Positions 14,085 through 20,550 of a DNA stretch of 32,336 bases are shown in pieces. Each line of letters begins with the position of its first letter. Within the stretch, counting starts at the first letter, position 1. The position numbers and the translations under genes are program-made. A model generated the notes under the pieces. The model did not search any database and was not told the origin of the DNA. It worked only from the letters and a program-made list of their open reading frames with translations. Source of the DNA: an uncultured Pseudomonadota bacterium (lineage in GTDB: Bacteria > Myxococcota_A > Bradymonadia > Bradymonadales > Bradymonadaceae); the NCBI GenBank assembly GCA_950059285.1, contig CATLTV010000042.1, positions 1 through 32,336 of the forward strand. The letters are read 5' to 3'.

Positions 14085-14699
14085 ATGGCCACAACGACCA
14101 CCAAGAGACTCCCTGCACACGAGCGCAGAATTCAAATCCTGAAGAGCGCCATTCATGTCTTTGCAGAACACACCTACCATGGCGCGACGACCAAAAAGAT
14201 CGCCGAAGAAGCAGGCGTCACCGAGGCGCTCATTTACCGTTATTTTGGCTCAAAACGCCTCCTGTTTACCGAGGCTATTGATGTCACCTCAGCACGTATT
14301 GTGAGAGGTCTTCAACGTGTCATCTCTGCACATCCCTCCGATCCAGAGGTAGGATTACGCGCATGTCTGGCCTACTACATCCACCTCCTTGAGAGCAGTA
14401 CAGACTCGGCCAAAATGCTTTTTCTGGTGCTCGCCGAGCTCGATCATCAGGACGTTCGAGACGCCTTTTTACCCCACCAGGATGAGGTCCTGAGGACGCT
14501 TAGCGACACCATTCAAAGCTGGCAAGAACAGAACTTACTTAGCCACGACTTTCACACACAAAGCGCCGCATGGTTGGCCTTCGGAAGTTACATCATTCTG
14601 GCGCTCGTCAAACACTCCCATGGCACGATTAAACTCGACGTGGACCAGGCCATGGGGCTTGTCTCTCCATACATAAAAAAGAGCCCAGATAGGTCTTGA
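14085..14699 (+). CDS. TetR-family transcriptional regulator
   Basis: The 204-residue protein has an N-terminal helix-turn-helix (about 15-60; HVFAEHTYHGATTKKIAEEAGVTEALIYRYFGSK) and a TetR C-terminal helical domain with an acidic and hydrophobic pocket region. The ATG at 14085 has AGGAACC upstream. It is divergent from the other tetR and ends just before a symmetric terminator at 14733-14770, so it seems to be a single-gene unit. It is not a close copy of its neighbour. It is the last gene before the proposed origin. Target and ligand are unknown. Confidence 0.85.
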   Translation: MATTTTKRLPAHERRIQILKSAIHVFAEHTYHGATTKKIAEEAGVTEALIYRYFGSKRLLFTEAIDVTSARIVRGLQRVISAHPSDPEVGLRACLAYYIHLLESSTDSAKMLFLVLAELDHQDVRDAFLPHQDEVLRTLSDTIQSWQEQNLLSHDFHTQSAAWLAFGSYIILALVKHSHGTIKLDVDQAMGLVSPYIKKSPDRS

Positions 14700-14732
14700 T
14701 CATAGCGTCTACCAACGCATCAATCGTCCTCA

Positions 14733-14770
14733 AAAAGAGCCCCCATATCGTACGATATGGGGGCTCTTTT
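14733..14770. terminator. 38-bp perfect palindromic terminator, no loop
   Basis: AAAAGAGCCCCCATATCGT (14733-14751) is the exact reverse complement of 14752-14770; the arms end in A-tract and T-tract. Strong bidirectional terminator marking the left border of the gene-free origin region. Confidence 0.88.
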
Positions 14771-15391
14771 ACATTTTATTTTTGGCACGTATTTCACGAT
14801 CCGAGAGCACATCACAGGTCAGAGATCACCTATTTTTTGCGCCATACGGGACCAAAAACCCTCAAAAAACACCACATTTCATATTATAATTCAAAACCTT
14901 AGACCACTAATTTTAAATCTCATATCTACCCCTCAAGAAAGAGATCTGATCAAAGCGTAAAAAAGATCTCAAAAAACTTTCAAGACAGGCGCCAATATGT
15001 CACCCTCAAGAGGCGTTCAAGGGGAGCATTCTCCAAGTGGTTTCATATAAATACGCACTCCCCCTCTTTTTCAAAATGGGGACACACGAACGTCCATGCG
15101 TCCGACGCATACATTCCTCGATGCGTTATTCATATAAAACATACCGCATGCACCAGACGCATAACCCAATCAAGAAACAGGGGTCAGGAGAACGCCTCCC
15201 ACCCACAATCTTGATCATAATGGGGGCGCCTCACACATGATCAGGCGCATTCTTTGAAAACCTGGCGATTATCAGTCCTGACGCGCATACGCGGTTTTTC
15301 GTGGCGTTGCTCAAAAACAACCCACAGCCACCAATCTCTAAAATGCGCATAAACACAGGCCGAAACGAGTTAAATACCGATCGGTTTAAAA
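14771..15391. other. Gene-free left flank of the proposed origin
   Basis: No gene is supported here. The left half is A/T-rich (14830-14960). Near 15096-15165 there are several ATGCGT/ACGCAT words in both orientations, including the palindrome ATGCGTCCGACGCAT at 15096-15110, ATGCGTTAT at 15121 and ACGCATAAC at 15157. ORFs of 60-68 codons exist but lack ribosome sites and recognisable sequence. Confidence 0.5.
15096..15165. repeat. Cluster of ATGCGT/ACGCAT words
   Basis: ATGCGT occurs at 15096 and 15121 and ACGCAT at 15105 and 15157, twice in inverted arrangement. They might bind an origin regulator or be chance. Seen in sequence; function inferred weakly. Confidence 0.35.
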
Positions 15392-15660
15392 CTTTCCACA
15401 GGCCCGAGAGAACGAAAAGGCAGCCTGTGGAAAACTTGTGAACAGGATTGTGACTCGTGTGTGGTTCTTGTTGTGTAAATCCTATGAAAAATGATCAAGG
15501 CATTCTTCCACATCTTTGATCACAACACTTTCCACAGCTTCCTGTGGAAAAAATTACCCCTTAAAAATCAGGCTTTTCACAGAGTTTTCCACATTTCCAC
15601 AGCCCCTACTAGTTCTACTAAATCAAAAATAAATTATTCTTCTTTCTATTCTTATTAGCT
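15392..15660. other. Chromosomal replication origin (oriC), core
   Basis: Seven DnaA-box-like 9-mers lie in 210 bases: CTTTCCACA 15392-15400 and 15528-15536, TCTTCCACA 15504-15512, TTTTCCACA 15585-15593, ATTTCCACA 15593-15601 (plus strand), and TGTGGAAAA 15426-15434 and 15543-15551 (minus). TTTTCCACA differs from the classical TTATCCACA by one base and is used as the box in several bacteria. The last two boxes overlap by one base and point into a GC-rich spacer (GCCC), DnaA-trios (15606-15623), and an A/T-rich tract to 15660 that would be the unwinding element. With dnaN 640 bases downstream and four parS sites within 12 kb, an origin is the best explanation. dnaA is not in the window. Confidence 0.8.
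15606..15623 (+). promoter_or_regulatory. DnaA-trio element
   Basis: CTACTAGTTCTACTAAAT directly follows the last DnaA box after four spacer bases (GCCC). Read on the opposite strand 3' to 5' it is GAT-GAT-CAA-GAT-GAT-TTA, the repeated triplet that guides DnaA onto single-stranded DNA at the basal unwinding system described for Bacillus subtilis. The A/T-rich tract follows immediately. Confidence 0.7.
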
Positions 15661-16302
15661 CCTACACGAGCAGACTCCATCGATGAACATGCATCGTCTG
15701 GATGAAGAACAGGGTCAGCAGGAGGGTCTTCAGGTCAGTCCCTTCAAAAACTTACTTGTCACACCCTGGGGTCTATGGCTTGATGATTGACAACCGAGGT
15801 GGGCTTTGGCTGTCCAGGGGGTCGTTCATGGCAGCTTCTACTCACCAGGGCATCTTCGGATACCAGGCCAACTGTGGGTGGTGACTTTTTGTGAGACCGT
15901 CCGAGTTTGTTCAGGATTGACTCTGTTATTTCCTGTCAATCTTGTGTACCGTGTCACGGTTGGACGCTAGCCACAAAAGTTCGCAATTGCTGTGGGTGGT
16001 GTCTGCTCGATGATGTGTAGTTAACCTTGCACGGAAGATATACCCTCAGGCTCCACAGTGTCCTCACCACAGATATCCATAACTTTTGGTGTGAGGGCTC
16101 CCATGACGATGACCAACATCAACGTGAGCTTGCTGTCTGGTGTGCAAGTTGAGGCCAACGAATCAAAGCTGACATAAAGACTGTCCTCCATCACGTATGT
16201 GTCTTCATATGTCTTGGCGGTGTCACCATCATCACCTTGATTCCAAAGTACGTGCCTCGTTGATAAGATTCTTTCACAAGTTTTTGCGGAGATTGAAAAT
16301 CC
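15661..16302. other. Gene-free region between origin core and dnaN
   Basis: About 640 bases with no supported gene. It contains a direct repeat of CTGTGGGTGGTG (15872-15883 and 15990-16001), an inverted repeat GATTGAC/GTCAATC (15915-15921, 15935-15941), the palindrome ACCGTG-T-CACGGT (15948-15960), and possible promoter boxes before dnaN (TTGATT 16237, 17 bases, TTGATA 16260). It probably holds the dnaN promoter and its control sites. Confidence 0.5.
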
Positions 16303-17424
16303 ATGAAGATTCGCATTTCCCGTCAGTCCCTCACAGATGAGCTGTTTAAGCTCCAAGGGGTCGTGAGTCAGCGTAGCACGCTCGCTATCCTTTCTAACGC
16401 ACTCCTGGAAGCTCAGGATGGTAAACTGACCCTCCATGCCACTGACCTCGATACAAGCGTCTCCACCTCCTGTGAGTGTGAAATCCTTGAAGAGGGTCGT
16501 GTGACACTCCAGGCAAAGAGCTTCTACGATATCGTGAAGAACTTGCAAGAGGATGAGCTGGAGCTCGAGACCGAGGAAAATCACTGGGCCAAACTTACCG
16601 CAGGTGATGTCACCTGTCGTATCGTTGGAACACACCCTGAAGACTTCCCTCAAATCCTGGACACCAAGGATGCCAAGCTTTACCCCATCGGTACACCTCA
16701 GCTCCTCTCCATGATTGAGAAGACCCTGTTCAGTGTCTCTACCGATGACATGCGAGCAAACCTTACAGGTGCCTACTTCCGTATCACCGATGAGAACACC
16801 TTCTTGATGGTCTCCACCGATGGTCACAGGCTCTCCAAGATTGAAGTCACCCCCGAAGAGTTCGAGGCTGACAACATTCCTCAGGCGCTCTCCGATGGGA
16901 TTATCATCCCTCGTAAAGGGCTCGCCGAGATCAAACGTATTGTCGATGCCAAGTCCAAGGACCTCAGCTTCGGTCTCGTGGATAACTCCATCGTCTTCCA
17001 GTATGGTCCCATGAGCCTCTCTGTGCGATTGATCGAGGGAACCTTCCCTGACTTCACACAGGTCCTCCCCAAGGACAGCGACAAGCGTGCGGTGGTTCAT
17101 CGCGACACCCTTGTGCAGTCCCTCAAGTTTGTGAGCCTCTTTGCGAGCCCCAAGACACACAACGTACGCATCTCTCTGACTGAAGAAGGTCTTGAGCTGT
17201 ACGCTTCTGATCCTGACAAGGGCGAGGGCAAGAAACTTGTCCCCGCCGAGTATGGTGGTCCTGTGGTCAAAGCGGGTTACAACTACCGCTACATGTTGGA
17301 CGTGCTCAATGTCATCGATGGTGATGAAGTCTCTCTGGAAGTCATCGATACGCTCTCTCCCACACTCCTGCGCGACTCCAACCACGATGAAGCGCTCTTT
17401 GTGGTGATGCCCATGCGTCTCTAG
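16303..17424 (+). CDS. dnaN: DNA polymerase III beta subunit (sliding clamp)
   Basis: The clamp is a ring-shaped dimer that holds the replicative polymerase on DNA. The 373-residue product starts with MKIRISRQSLTDELFKLQGVV and contains the recognised segments ATDLDTSV, AKSFYDIVKNL, GAYFRI, STDGHRLS, GLAEIKRI and the C-terminal LRDSNHDEALFVVMPMRL. The last residues match the conserved end of the clamp that lines the client-binding pocket. Length is normal for three clamp domains. The ATG at 16303 is clear, though its GGAG is about 12 bases upstream. It follows the origin and is not preceded by dnaA. It ends before a structured RNA candidate and a terminator, so recF is not simply cotranscribed with it. 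Confidence 0.97.
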   Translation: MKIRISRQSLTDELFKLQGVVSQRSTLAILSNALLEAQDGKLTLHATDLDTSVSTSCECEILEEGRVTLQAKSFYDIVKNLQEDELELETEENHWAKLTAGDVTCRIVGTHPEDFPQILDTKDAKLYPIGTPQLLSMIEKTLFSVSTDDMRANLTGAYFRITDENTFLMVSTDGHRLSKIEVTPEEFEADNIPQALSDGIIIPRKGLAEIKRIVDAKSKDLSFGLVDNSIVFQYGPMSLSVRLIEGTFPDFTQVLPKDSDKRAVVHRDTLVQSLKFVSLFASPKTHNVRISLTEEGLELYASDPDKGEGKKLVPAEYGGPVVKAGYNYRYMLDVLNVIDGDEVSLEVIDTLSPTLLRDSNHDEALFVVMPMRL

Positions 17425-17671: not shown

Positions 17672-17703
17672 GTTATGTGTAACCTACTAAAGTGAGACCT
17701 GTT

Positions 17704-18921
17704 ATGCTCGTCAAAGCGCTGCGCTTGCGACATTTTCGTAACCTATCCAGCATAGATCTGAAACCTCACCCTCGCTTTAATATCTTCAGCGGGGCAAATG
17801 GCCAGGGGAAGACGAACCTTCTTGAGGCTCTGTACCTGTTGAGCGCTGTGAAGAGCTTTCGCCCTCAAACCAACGCCGAACTGATCGAGTTCGACCAGAG
17901 CCAGGCTAGCCTTGAAGCTCATGTCGAACGCGGTGGCCAGGAACGTATCGTCAAGATTGAAATCGGCGAGCGTGGCAAGAAGGTCTACCTTAACAATAAC
18001 AAGGTGAAGCAACTCTCGAGCTTCTTTGGTACGCTGAACGTGGTCATGTTCGGCCCCGAAGATATCTCCCTGATGAAGGGGTCGCCTTCCAATCGACGAC
18101 GCTTTATTGATCGTGCCATCTTTAACGCGCAACCTGCGTATGCCACCGAGTCGATGCACTATGATGAAGTCCTTAAACAACGCAACGCATTGCTCAAAGG
18201 ACCGCATAACTCCGACCGCAAACTGTTGGCTGTGTATGATGAACAACTAATCCAGTATGGCGCATCAATTGTTCAGCGTAGGTACAATTACTTGCAGGAA
18301 TTTAAACCAACGTTTGAGAAGACGTTCCAGGACATCTTTGATGCAAGCTTTGAAGCCGAGCTGACATATGAGCTTGGCTGGCATTCAGGACCACTCAATG
18401 ATCCTGACGCTGTCCTCTCTGACAGGATCAAGATCGAGCAACTTCTTGCCGATGCGCTTGAACGTACTTCAGGTGAGGAGCGTGATCGTGGTCACACACT
18501 GGTCGGACCACATCGTGACGATCTTGGTGCGACCCTCAACGGACGAGAGCTAAAAGCGTTCGCCAGTCAGGGACAACATCGCGCGTTTGTGCTCGCCATG
18601 AAAATTGCCGAGATCTCACACCTTGAAGAGCGCTACAACTTTGCGCCCATTTTGTTGCTTGATGATGTCTCCAGTGAACTTGACCGTGATAGAAACCGCT
18701 ACCTCTTTGACTTCCTCTGCGATCGTATGGAAGGGCAGGTCTTTATTACCACCACCCACCGAGATTATATCTTGCTGGATCATGACCTCGCTGTGTTTCA
18801 CGTGAAACATGGGGAAATTGAGGCTCAGGATCCCGAGACAGATGCGTTTGCTACACCACACTCTCCACAGACTTATTCACAACCTTTGGAAAACTCCTCA
18901 TCCGCCAAACAAGAAGAGTAA
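17704..18921 (+). CDS. recF: DNA replication and repair protein RecF
   Basis: RecF is an ABC/SMC-type ATPase that helps load RecA at gaps. The 405-residue product has VKALRLRHFRNLSS at the start, Walker A GANGQGKTN (about 30-38), the signature region FASQGQHRAFVLAMKIAEI, and Walker B ILLLDDVSSELD. The ATG at 17704 gives the usual RecF N-terminus; the GTG at 17692 would add four residues. A perfect parS lies near the 3' end and encodes VFHVKH, in the position of the common final RecF strand. About 35 residues of polar tail (QDPETDAFATPHSPQ) follow this point. The start lies just past a strong terminator, so recF needs readthrough or its own promoter. The next gene starts six bases after its stop. 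Confidence 0.95.
   Translation: MLVKALRLRHFRNLSSIDLKPHPRFNIFSGANGQGKTNLLEALYLLSAVKSFRPQTNAELIEFDQSQASLEAHVERGGQERIVKIEIGERGKKVYLNNNKVKQLSSFFGTLNVVMFGPEDISLMKGSPSNRRRFIDRAIFNAQPAYATESMHYDEVLKQRNALLKGPHNSDRKLLAVYDEQLIQYGASIVQRRYNYLQEFKPTFEKTFQDIFDASFEAELTYELGWHSGPLNDPDAVLSDRIKIEQLLADALERTSGEERDRGHTLVGPHRDDLGATLNGRELKAFASQGQHRAFVLAMKIAEISHLEERYNFAPILLLDDVSSELDRDRNRYLFDFLCDRMEGQVFITTTHRDYILLDHDLAVFHVKHGEIEAQDPETDAFATPHSPQTYSQPLENSSSAKQEE
18794..18809. promoter_or_regulatory. parS site 4 (inside recF)
   Basis: Perfect TGTTTCACGTGAAACA within the recF coding sequence, about 3.2 kb right of the origin core. With the three sites on the left it brackets the origin. Confidence 0.92.
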
Positions 18922-18927
18922 AAATAT

Positions 18928-20550
18928 ATGAACAGTTCACGCTCAAGGCGTTCAAAGACACCCCTCTCATTTGATCTGACGTTGGAAGGGGTCCCCACAT
19001 TGCAACGAGGTCCAAAACGAGGTGATGAATGCCTCGTGAAAATTAACAAGCTTGACTCCAAGGGATTGGGGGTCGCGCTTGTGGATGCGCTCGTGGGTCC
19101 ACAAAAAGAACTTAAAAGTTATGCGATACGTGTACCTCACACCTTGCCAGACGAAGTCGTGCGCGTGGCTGTCGACAAAACTCGTAAAGGAGAGGTCGCC
19201 ACCAGTCGACTTGAGCTAGTACACACATCTGAAGACAGGATCGTTTCTCAGTGTCCTCACTTTGGTTTGCAAAATCTTGAACAAAATCAAGGGTGTGGAG
19301 GGTGTACGATTCAATCCGTGTCGTATGCAACTCAGCTTGAACTCAAGCAACAAGTCGTCTCTCAGGCGTTTGAAGATTACCCCGAGGTGACGCCGCTCAT
19401 TCAACCTGTGATGGCCTGTGAGTCTCCTCTGTATTATCGCAACAAGATGGAGTTTAGCTTCGGTGACCATCTTCATACCACCTTTGCTGTGGGGCTCCAT
19501 CCTGCGGGTCGACGCTATGATGTGCTTGAACTTCAATCCTGTCATTTGCTCTCTCCATGGGTTGAGGCGCTCTTGCCCGCGCTCTCCTCATGGTGTGTGG
19601 AGCATGATGTAAAGCCTTTTAGTCACGCCAAAAATGGTGGTTTTCTTCGCCAACTTATGATGCGTGAAGGAAAAAACACGGGTGAGCGACTTGTGGAGCT
19701 CATGACCTCTGCTGTGCCCACCGCCGTGTTCGACGGCGAGGAGCGAGAAGCCCAGTTTGTTGCCCATCAAGTGTGTGAACAAATACTCGCCATTTCAAAA
19801 GATGCAGGCTTTGATATTCGTACGGTCTACTGGACTCAGCACTACGCCAAAAAAGGCGAGCGCTCCCGTCAGATCGAGGAAGTTGTGCATGGTGATGGCG
19901 TCTTTCATGAAACGCTGCAAATCGGAACTCAAAAGACACTCGATTTTGCCATTCACCCAAGAGCATTTTTTCAGCCCAACACACGTCAAGCGCAACACCT
20001 TTATGAAGAGGTGCTGCTTGCGGCAAATCTCCTAAAGCGCAATGCACATGGTGAGCTTGTTGCCAGTGAAGAGAGCGATAAAAAACCACAACTTGCGCTC
20101 GATTTATACTGTGGTACAGGCACCATCGCGCTCTGTCTTGCGCCTTTTGTGGATCGTGTCGTGGGCGTAGAGTTGAACGCACAAGCTGTTGAAAATGCGA
20201 ATAAAAATGCAGTTCACAACGCGCTCGGTAATGTCCGCTTTTTTGCAGGTGATGTGGCAGAGGTTCTTGAGCAGGACGACTTTATCAGTGAGGTAGGGGA
20301 GCAGGGCGTGGATCTCGTTGTGGTAGATCCTCCTCGCGCAGGTTTGATGCCTCAAGCCATTGCACATATCAACGCAATCAATGCTCCTGTTCTTGTGTAT
20401 GTGTCATGTAATCCAAGATCTCTTGCTCGCGATCTTGGGCGTCTCCAGGAAAGCTCTGATTATGAGTTAATCTCTGTGCAGCCTGTCGATATGTTCCCAC
20501 AAACCATGCATGTGGAGAACGTGGCGTTGTTTAAGCGTCGTGAGTCATAA
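18928..20550 (+). CDS. RlmD/TrmA-family RNA m5-uridine methyltransferase
   Basis: The enzyme transfers methyl from S-adenosylmethionine to C5 of a uridine in rRNA or tRNA. The 540-residue product has a TRAM-like RNA-binding domain (about 30-105) and four Cys that fit the 4Fe-4S site (C109, C123, C126 in GCGGC, C205 in LQSCHLL). The methyltransferase domain shows ALDLYCGTGTIALCL, VVVDPPRAGL and the catalytic-Cys motif VSCNPRSLARDL. It is longer than E. coli RlmD (about 430), partly through an extended N-terminus and an insertion before the SAM motif. The iron-sulfur Cys set favours the RlmD/RlmCD side over TrmA; the exact uridine cannot be told. It starts six bases after recF and is probably cotranscribed with it. 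Confidence 0.85.
   Translation: MNSSRSRRSKTPLSFDLTLEGVPTLQRGPKRGDECLVKINKLDSKGLGVALVDALVGPQKELKSYAIRVPHTLPDEVVRVAVDKTRKGEVATSRLELVHTSEDRIVSQCPHFGLQNLEQNQGCGGCTIQSVSYATQLELKQQVVSQAFEDYPEVTPLIQPVMACESPLYYRNKMEFSFGDHLHTTFAVGLHPAGRRYDVLELQSCHLLSPWVEALLPALSSWCVEHDVKPFSHAKNGGFLRQLMMREGKNTGERLVELMTSAVPTAVFDGEEREAQFVAHQVCEQILAISKDAGFDIRTVYWTQHYAKKGERSRQIEEVVHGDGVFHETLQIGTQKTLDFAIHPRAFFQPNTRQAQHLYEEVLLAANLLKRNAHGELVASEESDKKPQLALDLYCGTGTIALCLAPFVDRVVGVELNAQAVENANKNAVHNALGNVRFFAGDVAEVLEQDDFISEVGEQGVDLVVVDPPRAGLMPQAIAHINAINAPVLVYVSCNPRSLARDLGRLQESSDYELISVQPVDMFPQTMHVENVALFKRRES

Follow-up and report, generated by a model that had tools for sequence, protein, structure and literature searches.

A very probable chromosomal origin upstream of dnaN, apart from dnaA, in a Bradymonadales genome

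The dnaN-upstream region and its DnaA boxes

The window, which is the whole stretch of 32,336 nucleotides analysed here, is an entire contig (C42) of a 6.65-Mb genome (G000) assembled in 441 contigs. It contains a stretch of 1,603 bases without a convincing gene (14700–16302), bordered on one side by a TetR-family gene and on the other by dnaN, the gene for the beta clamp of DNA polymerase III, which is followed by a gene for a RecF/SMC-type ATPase, probably recF (Table 1). Among named records, the relatives of the dnaN product, at 70–77% protein identity, are Lujinxingia vulgaris and uncultured ‘Myxococcales’ bins; L. vulgaris, which belongs to Bradymonadales, is the sole named species found among them. 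In this lineage the origin can be recognised by having dnaN next to it. The dnaA gene is absent from the contig and is located on another contig of the same genome (G000:C152).

A perfect 19-base inverted repeat (14733–14770), with T-rich sequence after it, follows the TetR-family gene and is likely to be a terminator. Promoter and terminator scans returned one match each, not above shuffled sequence, and an Rfam search of the window returned no match.

Table 1 Features of the dnaN-upstream region and its borders (window coordinates; BUS, basal unwinding system).
Feature	Position	Strand	Remarks
TetR-family gene	14085–14699		Left border of the gene-free stretch
DnaA box CTTTCCACA	15392–15400	+	Distal subregion
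DnaA box TTTTCCACA	15426–15434	−	Distal subregion
Weak box ATTTACACA	15472–15480	−	One mismatch to TTWTNCACA; absent from the sequence-only list; may be chance
DnaA box TCTTCCACA	15504–15512	+	
DnaA box CTTTCCACA	15528–15536	+	
DnaA box TTTTCCACA	15543–15551	−	
Weak box CTTTTCACA	15573–15581	+	One mismatch to TTWTNCACA; absent from the sequence-only list; may be chance
BUS upstream DnaA box TTTTCCACA	15585–15593	+	Conserved in relatives
BUS downstream DnaA box ATTTCCACA	15593–15601	+	Shares base 15593 with the preceding box
GC-rich spacer GCCC	15602–15605	+	Tandem boxes to trios; G(G/C)CC in most relatives
Five DnaA-trios CTA CTA GTT CTA CTA	15606–15620	+	Conserved in relatives
AT-rich stretch past the trios	15621–15660		Sequence composition
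dnaN (DNA polymerase III beta clamp)	16303–17424	+	Pfam PF00712, PF02767, PF02768
RecF/SMC-type ATPase gene, probably recF	17692–18921	+	After dnaN; Pfam PF02463

Seven 9-mers of the NNTTCCACA type, with TTCCACA cores and in both orientations, lie within 210 bases (15392–15601). All seven are where an earlier reading of this DNA, made from the sequence only, had listed them, and none is the classical TTATCCACA, whose single copy in the window is at 467. The cluster is far above chance expectation: it holds 7 of the 12 TTCCACA cores of the 32.3-kb window, against a maximum of 2 cores per 210 bases in third-order Markov simulations (n = 300). Sites matching TTWTNCACA with at most one mismatch number 10 in 261 bases, or 38 per kb, compared with 1.8 per kb elsewhere, and three of the seven boxes fit the broad consensus TT(A/T)TNCACA. 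Across the source genome the word TTTTCCACA is not enriched (64 copies, and 66 of the reversed word).

Domain IV of the genome’s own DnaA aligns to the structure of Escherichia coli DnaA domain IV (1j1v) and keeps the RR.R, PRQ and DHTT motifs, which we take to hold the base-contacting residues. No new recognition code is therefore needed, and the altered base-contacting residues expected of a lineage-specific one, as in Thermotoga, were not seen. The sequence-only suggestion that the boxes are a variant peculiar to this lineage is not supported: TTTTCCACA falls within the general TTWTNCACA and is the usual cyanobacterial box (PMC4674748), domain IV is ordinary, and TTATCCACA and TTTTCCACA occur together in the relatives.

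The unwinding module and its conservation

The last two boxes of the cluster are followed, in the direction of dnaN, by a 4-base GC-rich spacer, five DnaA-trios and an AT-rich stretch. These two boxes overlap by one base, as do the tandem boxes of six relatives (G002, G007, G010, G015, G017 and G023) and, likewise, the tandem pair of Bacillus subtilis. The trios, which are the most diagnostic part of the arrangement and were missed in the sequence-only reading, are of the 3′-GAT-5′ type on the opposite strand (four of the five being GAT) and would be the site of duplex opening, with the AT-rich stretch as the presumptive continuation of the unwinding region. A strict search found the combination of boxes, 4-base GC spacer and five trios at one place only in the window.

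The basal unwinding system (BUS) is defined by at least three DnaA-trios (3′-NAN-5′, mostly GAT) within 16 bases of a DnaA box, a definition that 1,755 of 2,070 predicted origins (85%) satisfy; boxes in tandem are its most frequent layout (57%), and the distance separating the trios from the better box has a published peak at 10–13 bases (PMC8287927). The tandem, which had been called unusual, is thus the commonest layout. The trios here begin 12 bases from the upstream box and 4 bases from the downstream box; the upstream box is the better one, and its 12-base spacer agrees with the published peak. The locus has a box within 16 bases of the trios, at least three trios, a box cluster and conservation at the same place, all in keeping with a BUS.

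The proposed mechanism follows the BUS literature. DnaA would bind the tandem boxes (15585–15601), aided by DnaA on the distal boxes (15392–15551), and a DnaA filament would grow from the tandem boxes onto the trios (15606–15620). The duplex would open at the trios and into the AT-rich stretch towards dnaN; helicase loading would come next, and forks would then depart in both directions. In B. subtilis, the trio-adjacent boxes and the distal box subregion are both needed, and a distal box can be shifted hundreds of bases upstream (PMC6669920).

When the gene-free stretch (14700–16302) was compared with the dnaN-upstream regions of relatives, only about 15560–15647, centred on the module, aligned with other genera. 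Upstream of dnaN, most family members have the tandem boxes together with G(G/C)CC and trios of the CTACTA type, as do some of the class’s other families. A BUS pattern search of 57 related genomes, allowing up to 2 mismatches, gave 26 matches in 24 genomes, with 4 matches for the reversed-pattern control; 22 of the 26 lie upstream of dnaN, the others being on G011:C45, G019:C417, G023:C230 and G042:C169. Five genomes (G003, G004, G005, G008 and G012) have altered boxes, and in these the pattern finds no match within 2 mismatches.

Several boxes, pointing both ways, could also belong to a site of the datA or DARS type that titrates or reactivates DnaA close to the true origin. Neither trios nor an unwinding stretch is known from such sites, however, and the module, nearly unique in each genome, keeps to dnaN across many genera, which leaves this explanation extremely improbable.

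Several variations accompany the module in the relatives. In G008, about 200 bases before dnaN, the boxes preceding the trios are TTGATCACA and ATGATCACA in place of TTTTCCACA and ATTTCCACA; GATCACA words recur in the G008 and G010 origins, possibly reflecting a switch of box word inside one family. GATCACA is enriched in some origins of the family, in only half of the genera, and for that reason was not counted as part of the window’s origin. On G011:C45 a 22-base unit, TTATCCACGGTACACAAACCGG, is repeated six times in tandem downstream of the BUS, before the contig end; every repeat includes a near-consensus DnaA box. A conserved word of the GCTATGGTGGATTG type, some 50–100 bases before dnaN in many relatives (G004, G005, G006, G008, G009 and G011), is perhaps part of the dnaN promoter; a word of this type is not evident in the window.

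The gap between BUS and dnaN is about 700 bases here (15621–16302), compared with mostly 180–375 in the relatives. A search of the source genome for a second copy of 15610–16302 found this segment alone, so the long gap is not a repeat of the genome. DnaA regulates several promoters in other bacteria, and a cluster placed upstream of dnaN could accordingly be read as a DnaA-controlled dnaN promoter region instead of an origin. This reading is very unlikely: the boxes are 700–900 bases from the dnaN start, trios and a GC spacer are not known to take part in controlling transcription, and the GC skew of G008 switches at dnaN, as described below.

Position of dnaA and GC skew

In family members with both genes on the same contig, dnaA and dnaN are separated by approximately 92 kb (G005), 103 kb (G010), 110 kb (G013), 124 kb (G004), 192 kb (G012) and, around the circle, 513 kb (G008). 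In three genomes of the same order (G021, G024 and G025) the two genes are adjacent. In genomes with the genes apart, the BUS accompanies dnaN, and this extends to G051 and G052, which belong to another family. The 1.2 kb upstream of the source genome’s dnaA contain no boxes, and the pattern search found no BUS at dnaA in the window’s family, except in G011, in which a match lies on the dnaA-bearing contig. A 107-base sequence at the end of that contig recurs where the contig with dnaN starts; the two contigs therefore probably join, a shared repeat being the alternative, and this probable join accounts for the exception. If the join is right, dnaA and dnaN of G011 are about 10 kb apart. It comes as a mild surprise that in the window’s lineage the probable oriC stayed beside dnaN and dnaA moved elsewhere on the chromosome.

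The GC skew was sampled in 20-kb blocks in G008, a single contig of 5.05 Mb that is 99% complete. Its sign goes from negative to positive within the dnaN-containing block, with the opposite switch near 2.1–2.3 Mb, and dnaA, 513 kb from dnaN, is inside the positive arm. G010 has a noisy profile with a local sign change in the dnaN block and not at dnaA; the skew of G005 is scrambled and singles out neither gene. The cumulative skew minimum of the window, computed for this 32.3-kb contig alone out of the 441 contigs of the genome, is at 18968, 3.4 kb from the boxes.

The presence of dnaA on another contig and the unclear skew of G005 would suit a relic origin, the working one having moved with dnaA or elsewhere. 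Against this, the source genome’s dnaA lacks upstream boxes, the skew of G008 switches at dnaN and not at dnaA, and the module has been kept in different genera, as a relic would not be; such a history is highly improbable. From the anatomy of the locus, its conservation, the skew of a relative and the published behaviour of BUS elements, we infer that positions 15392–15660 are the chromosomal origin, oriC, with a probability of about 0.94. Points that speak against it are the scrambled skew of G005 and the noise in that of G010, the altered boxes of five relatives, the long gap before dnaN and the in-frame stop in dnaA described below. The sequence-only proposal of an origin upstream of dnaN and away from dnaA is supported by the BUS module, its conservation and the G008 skew.

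In the only full dnaA of the assembly (G000:C152), an in-frame TAG (L001:2191–2193) separates domain III from domain IV; the frame continues past it into an intact domain IV, for which a TTG at 2197 is a possible start. Relatives have no stop at this position and read through it. TAG also terminates the window’s dnaN and so acts as a stop in this genome; its occurrence within dnaA probably reflects a strain variant or an error of assembly. Were it real, DnaA would consist of two polypeptides, domains I–III (436 amino acids) and a separately started domain IV (approximately 105 amino acids), and the box-binding and filament-forming parts would act on oriC as separate proteins; we regard this as very unlikely. 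Another protein of the genome (G000:C317, L002; a 317-amino-acid open frame) also has a DnaA-type ATPase domain (60 bits) and is possibly an Hda-like regulator.

Comparison with known origins

A search of a literature collection found no paper joining words that begin with ‘Bradymonad’ with ‘replication origin’, and the present reading would place oriC for this little-studied order. It also points to a practical trap: the single-contig assembly of G008 has dnaA at its start, and the probable origin lies 513 kb away. The genomes whose dnaA has left the origin, with the unwinding module remaining at dnaN, form a natural series in which to ask what the nearness of dnaA and oriC serves.

The oriC described here is ordinary in build, like most bacterial origins, and of the BUS kind. 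With incC of B. subtilis and the BUS of bacteria at large (PMC6669920, PMC8287927) it shares tandem boxes, a short GC-rich spacer, 3′-GAT-5′ trios, an AT-rich region, further boxes upstream and dnaN downstream. It differs from the B. subtilis type in that its boxes are TTTTCCACA and ATTTCCACA and not TTATCCACA first, dnaA is not the upstream neighbour, and about 700 bases separate the trios from dnaN. Three genomes of the same class (G021, G038 and G053) have the same BUS upstream of dnaN but, unlike the window, have dnaA directly upstream, with the BUS between the two genes. TTTTCCACA is the standard cyanobacterial box, and cyanobacterial origins usually adjoin dnaN (PMC4674748, PMC6323995); the box word and an origin at dnaN with dnaA elsewhere are thus shared with cyanobacterial oriC, although the lineage of the window is unrelated. 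Membership among cyanobacterial origins was rejected because the window’s relatives are Bradymonadales (Lujinxingia vulgaris being the one named species among the dnaN relatives found), and the likeness is convergent or ancestral.
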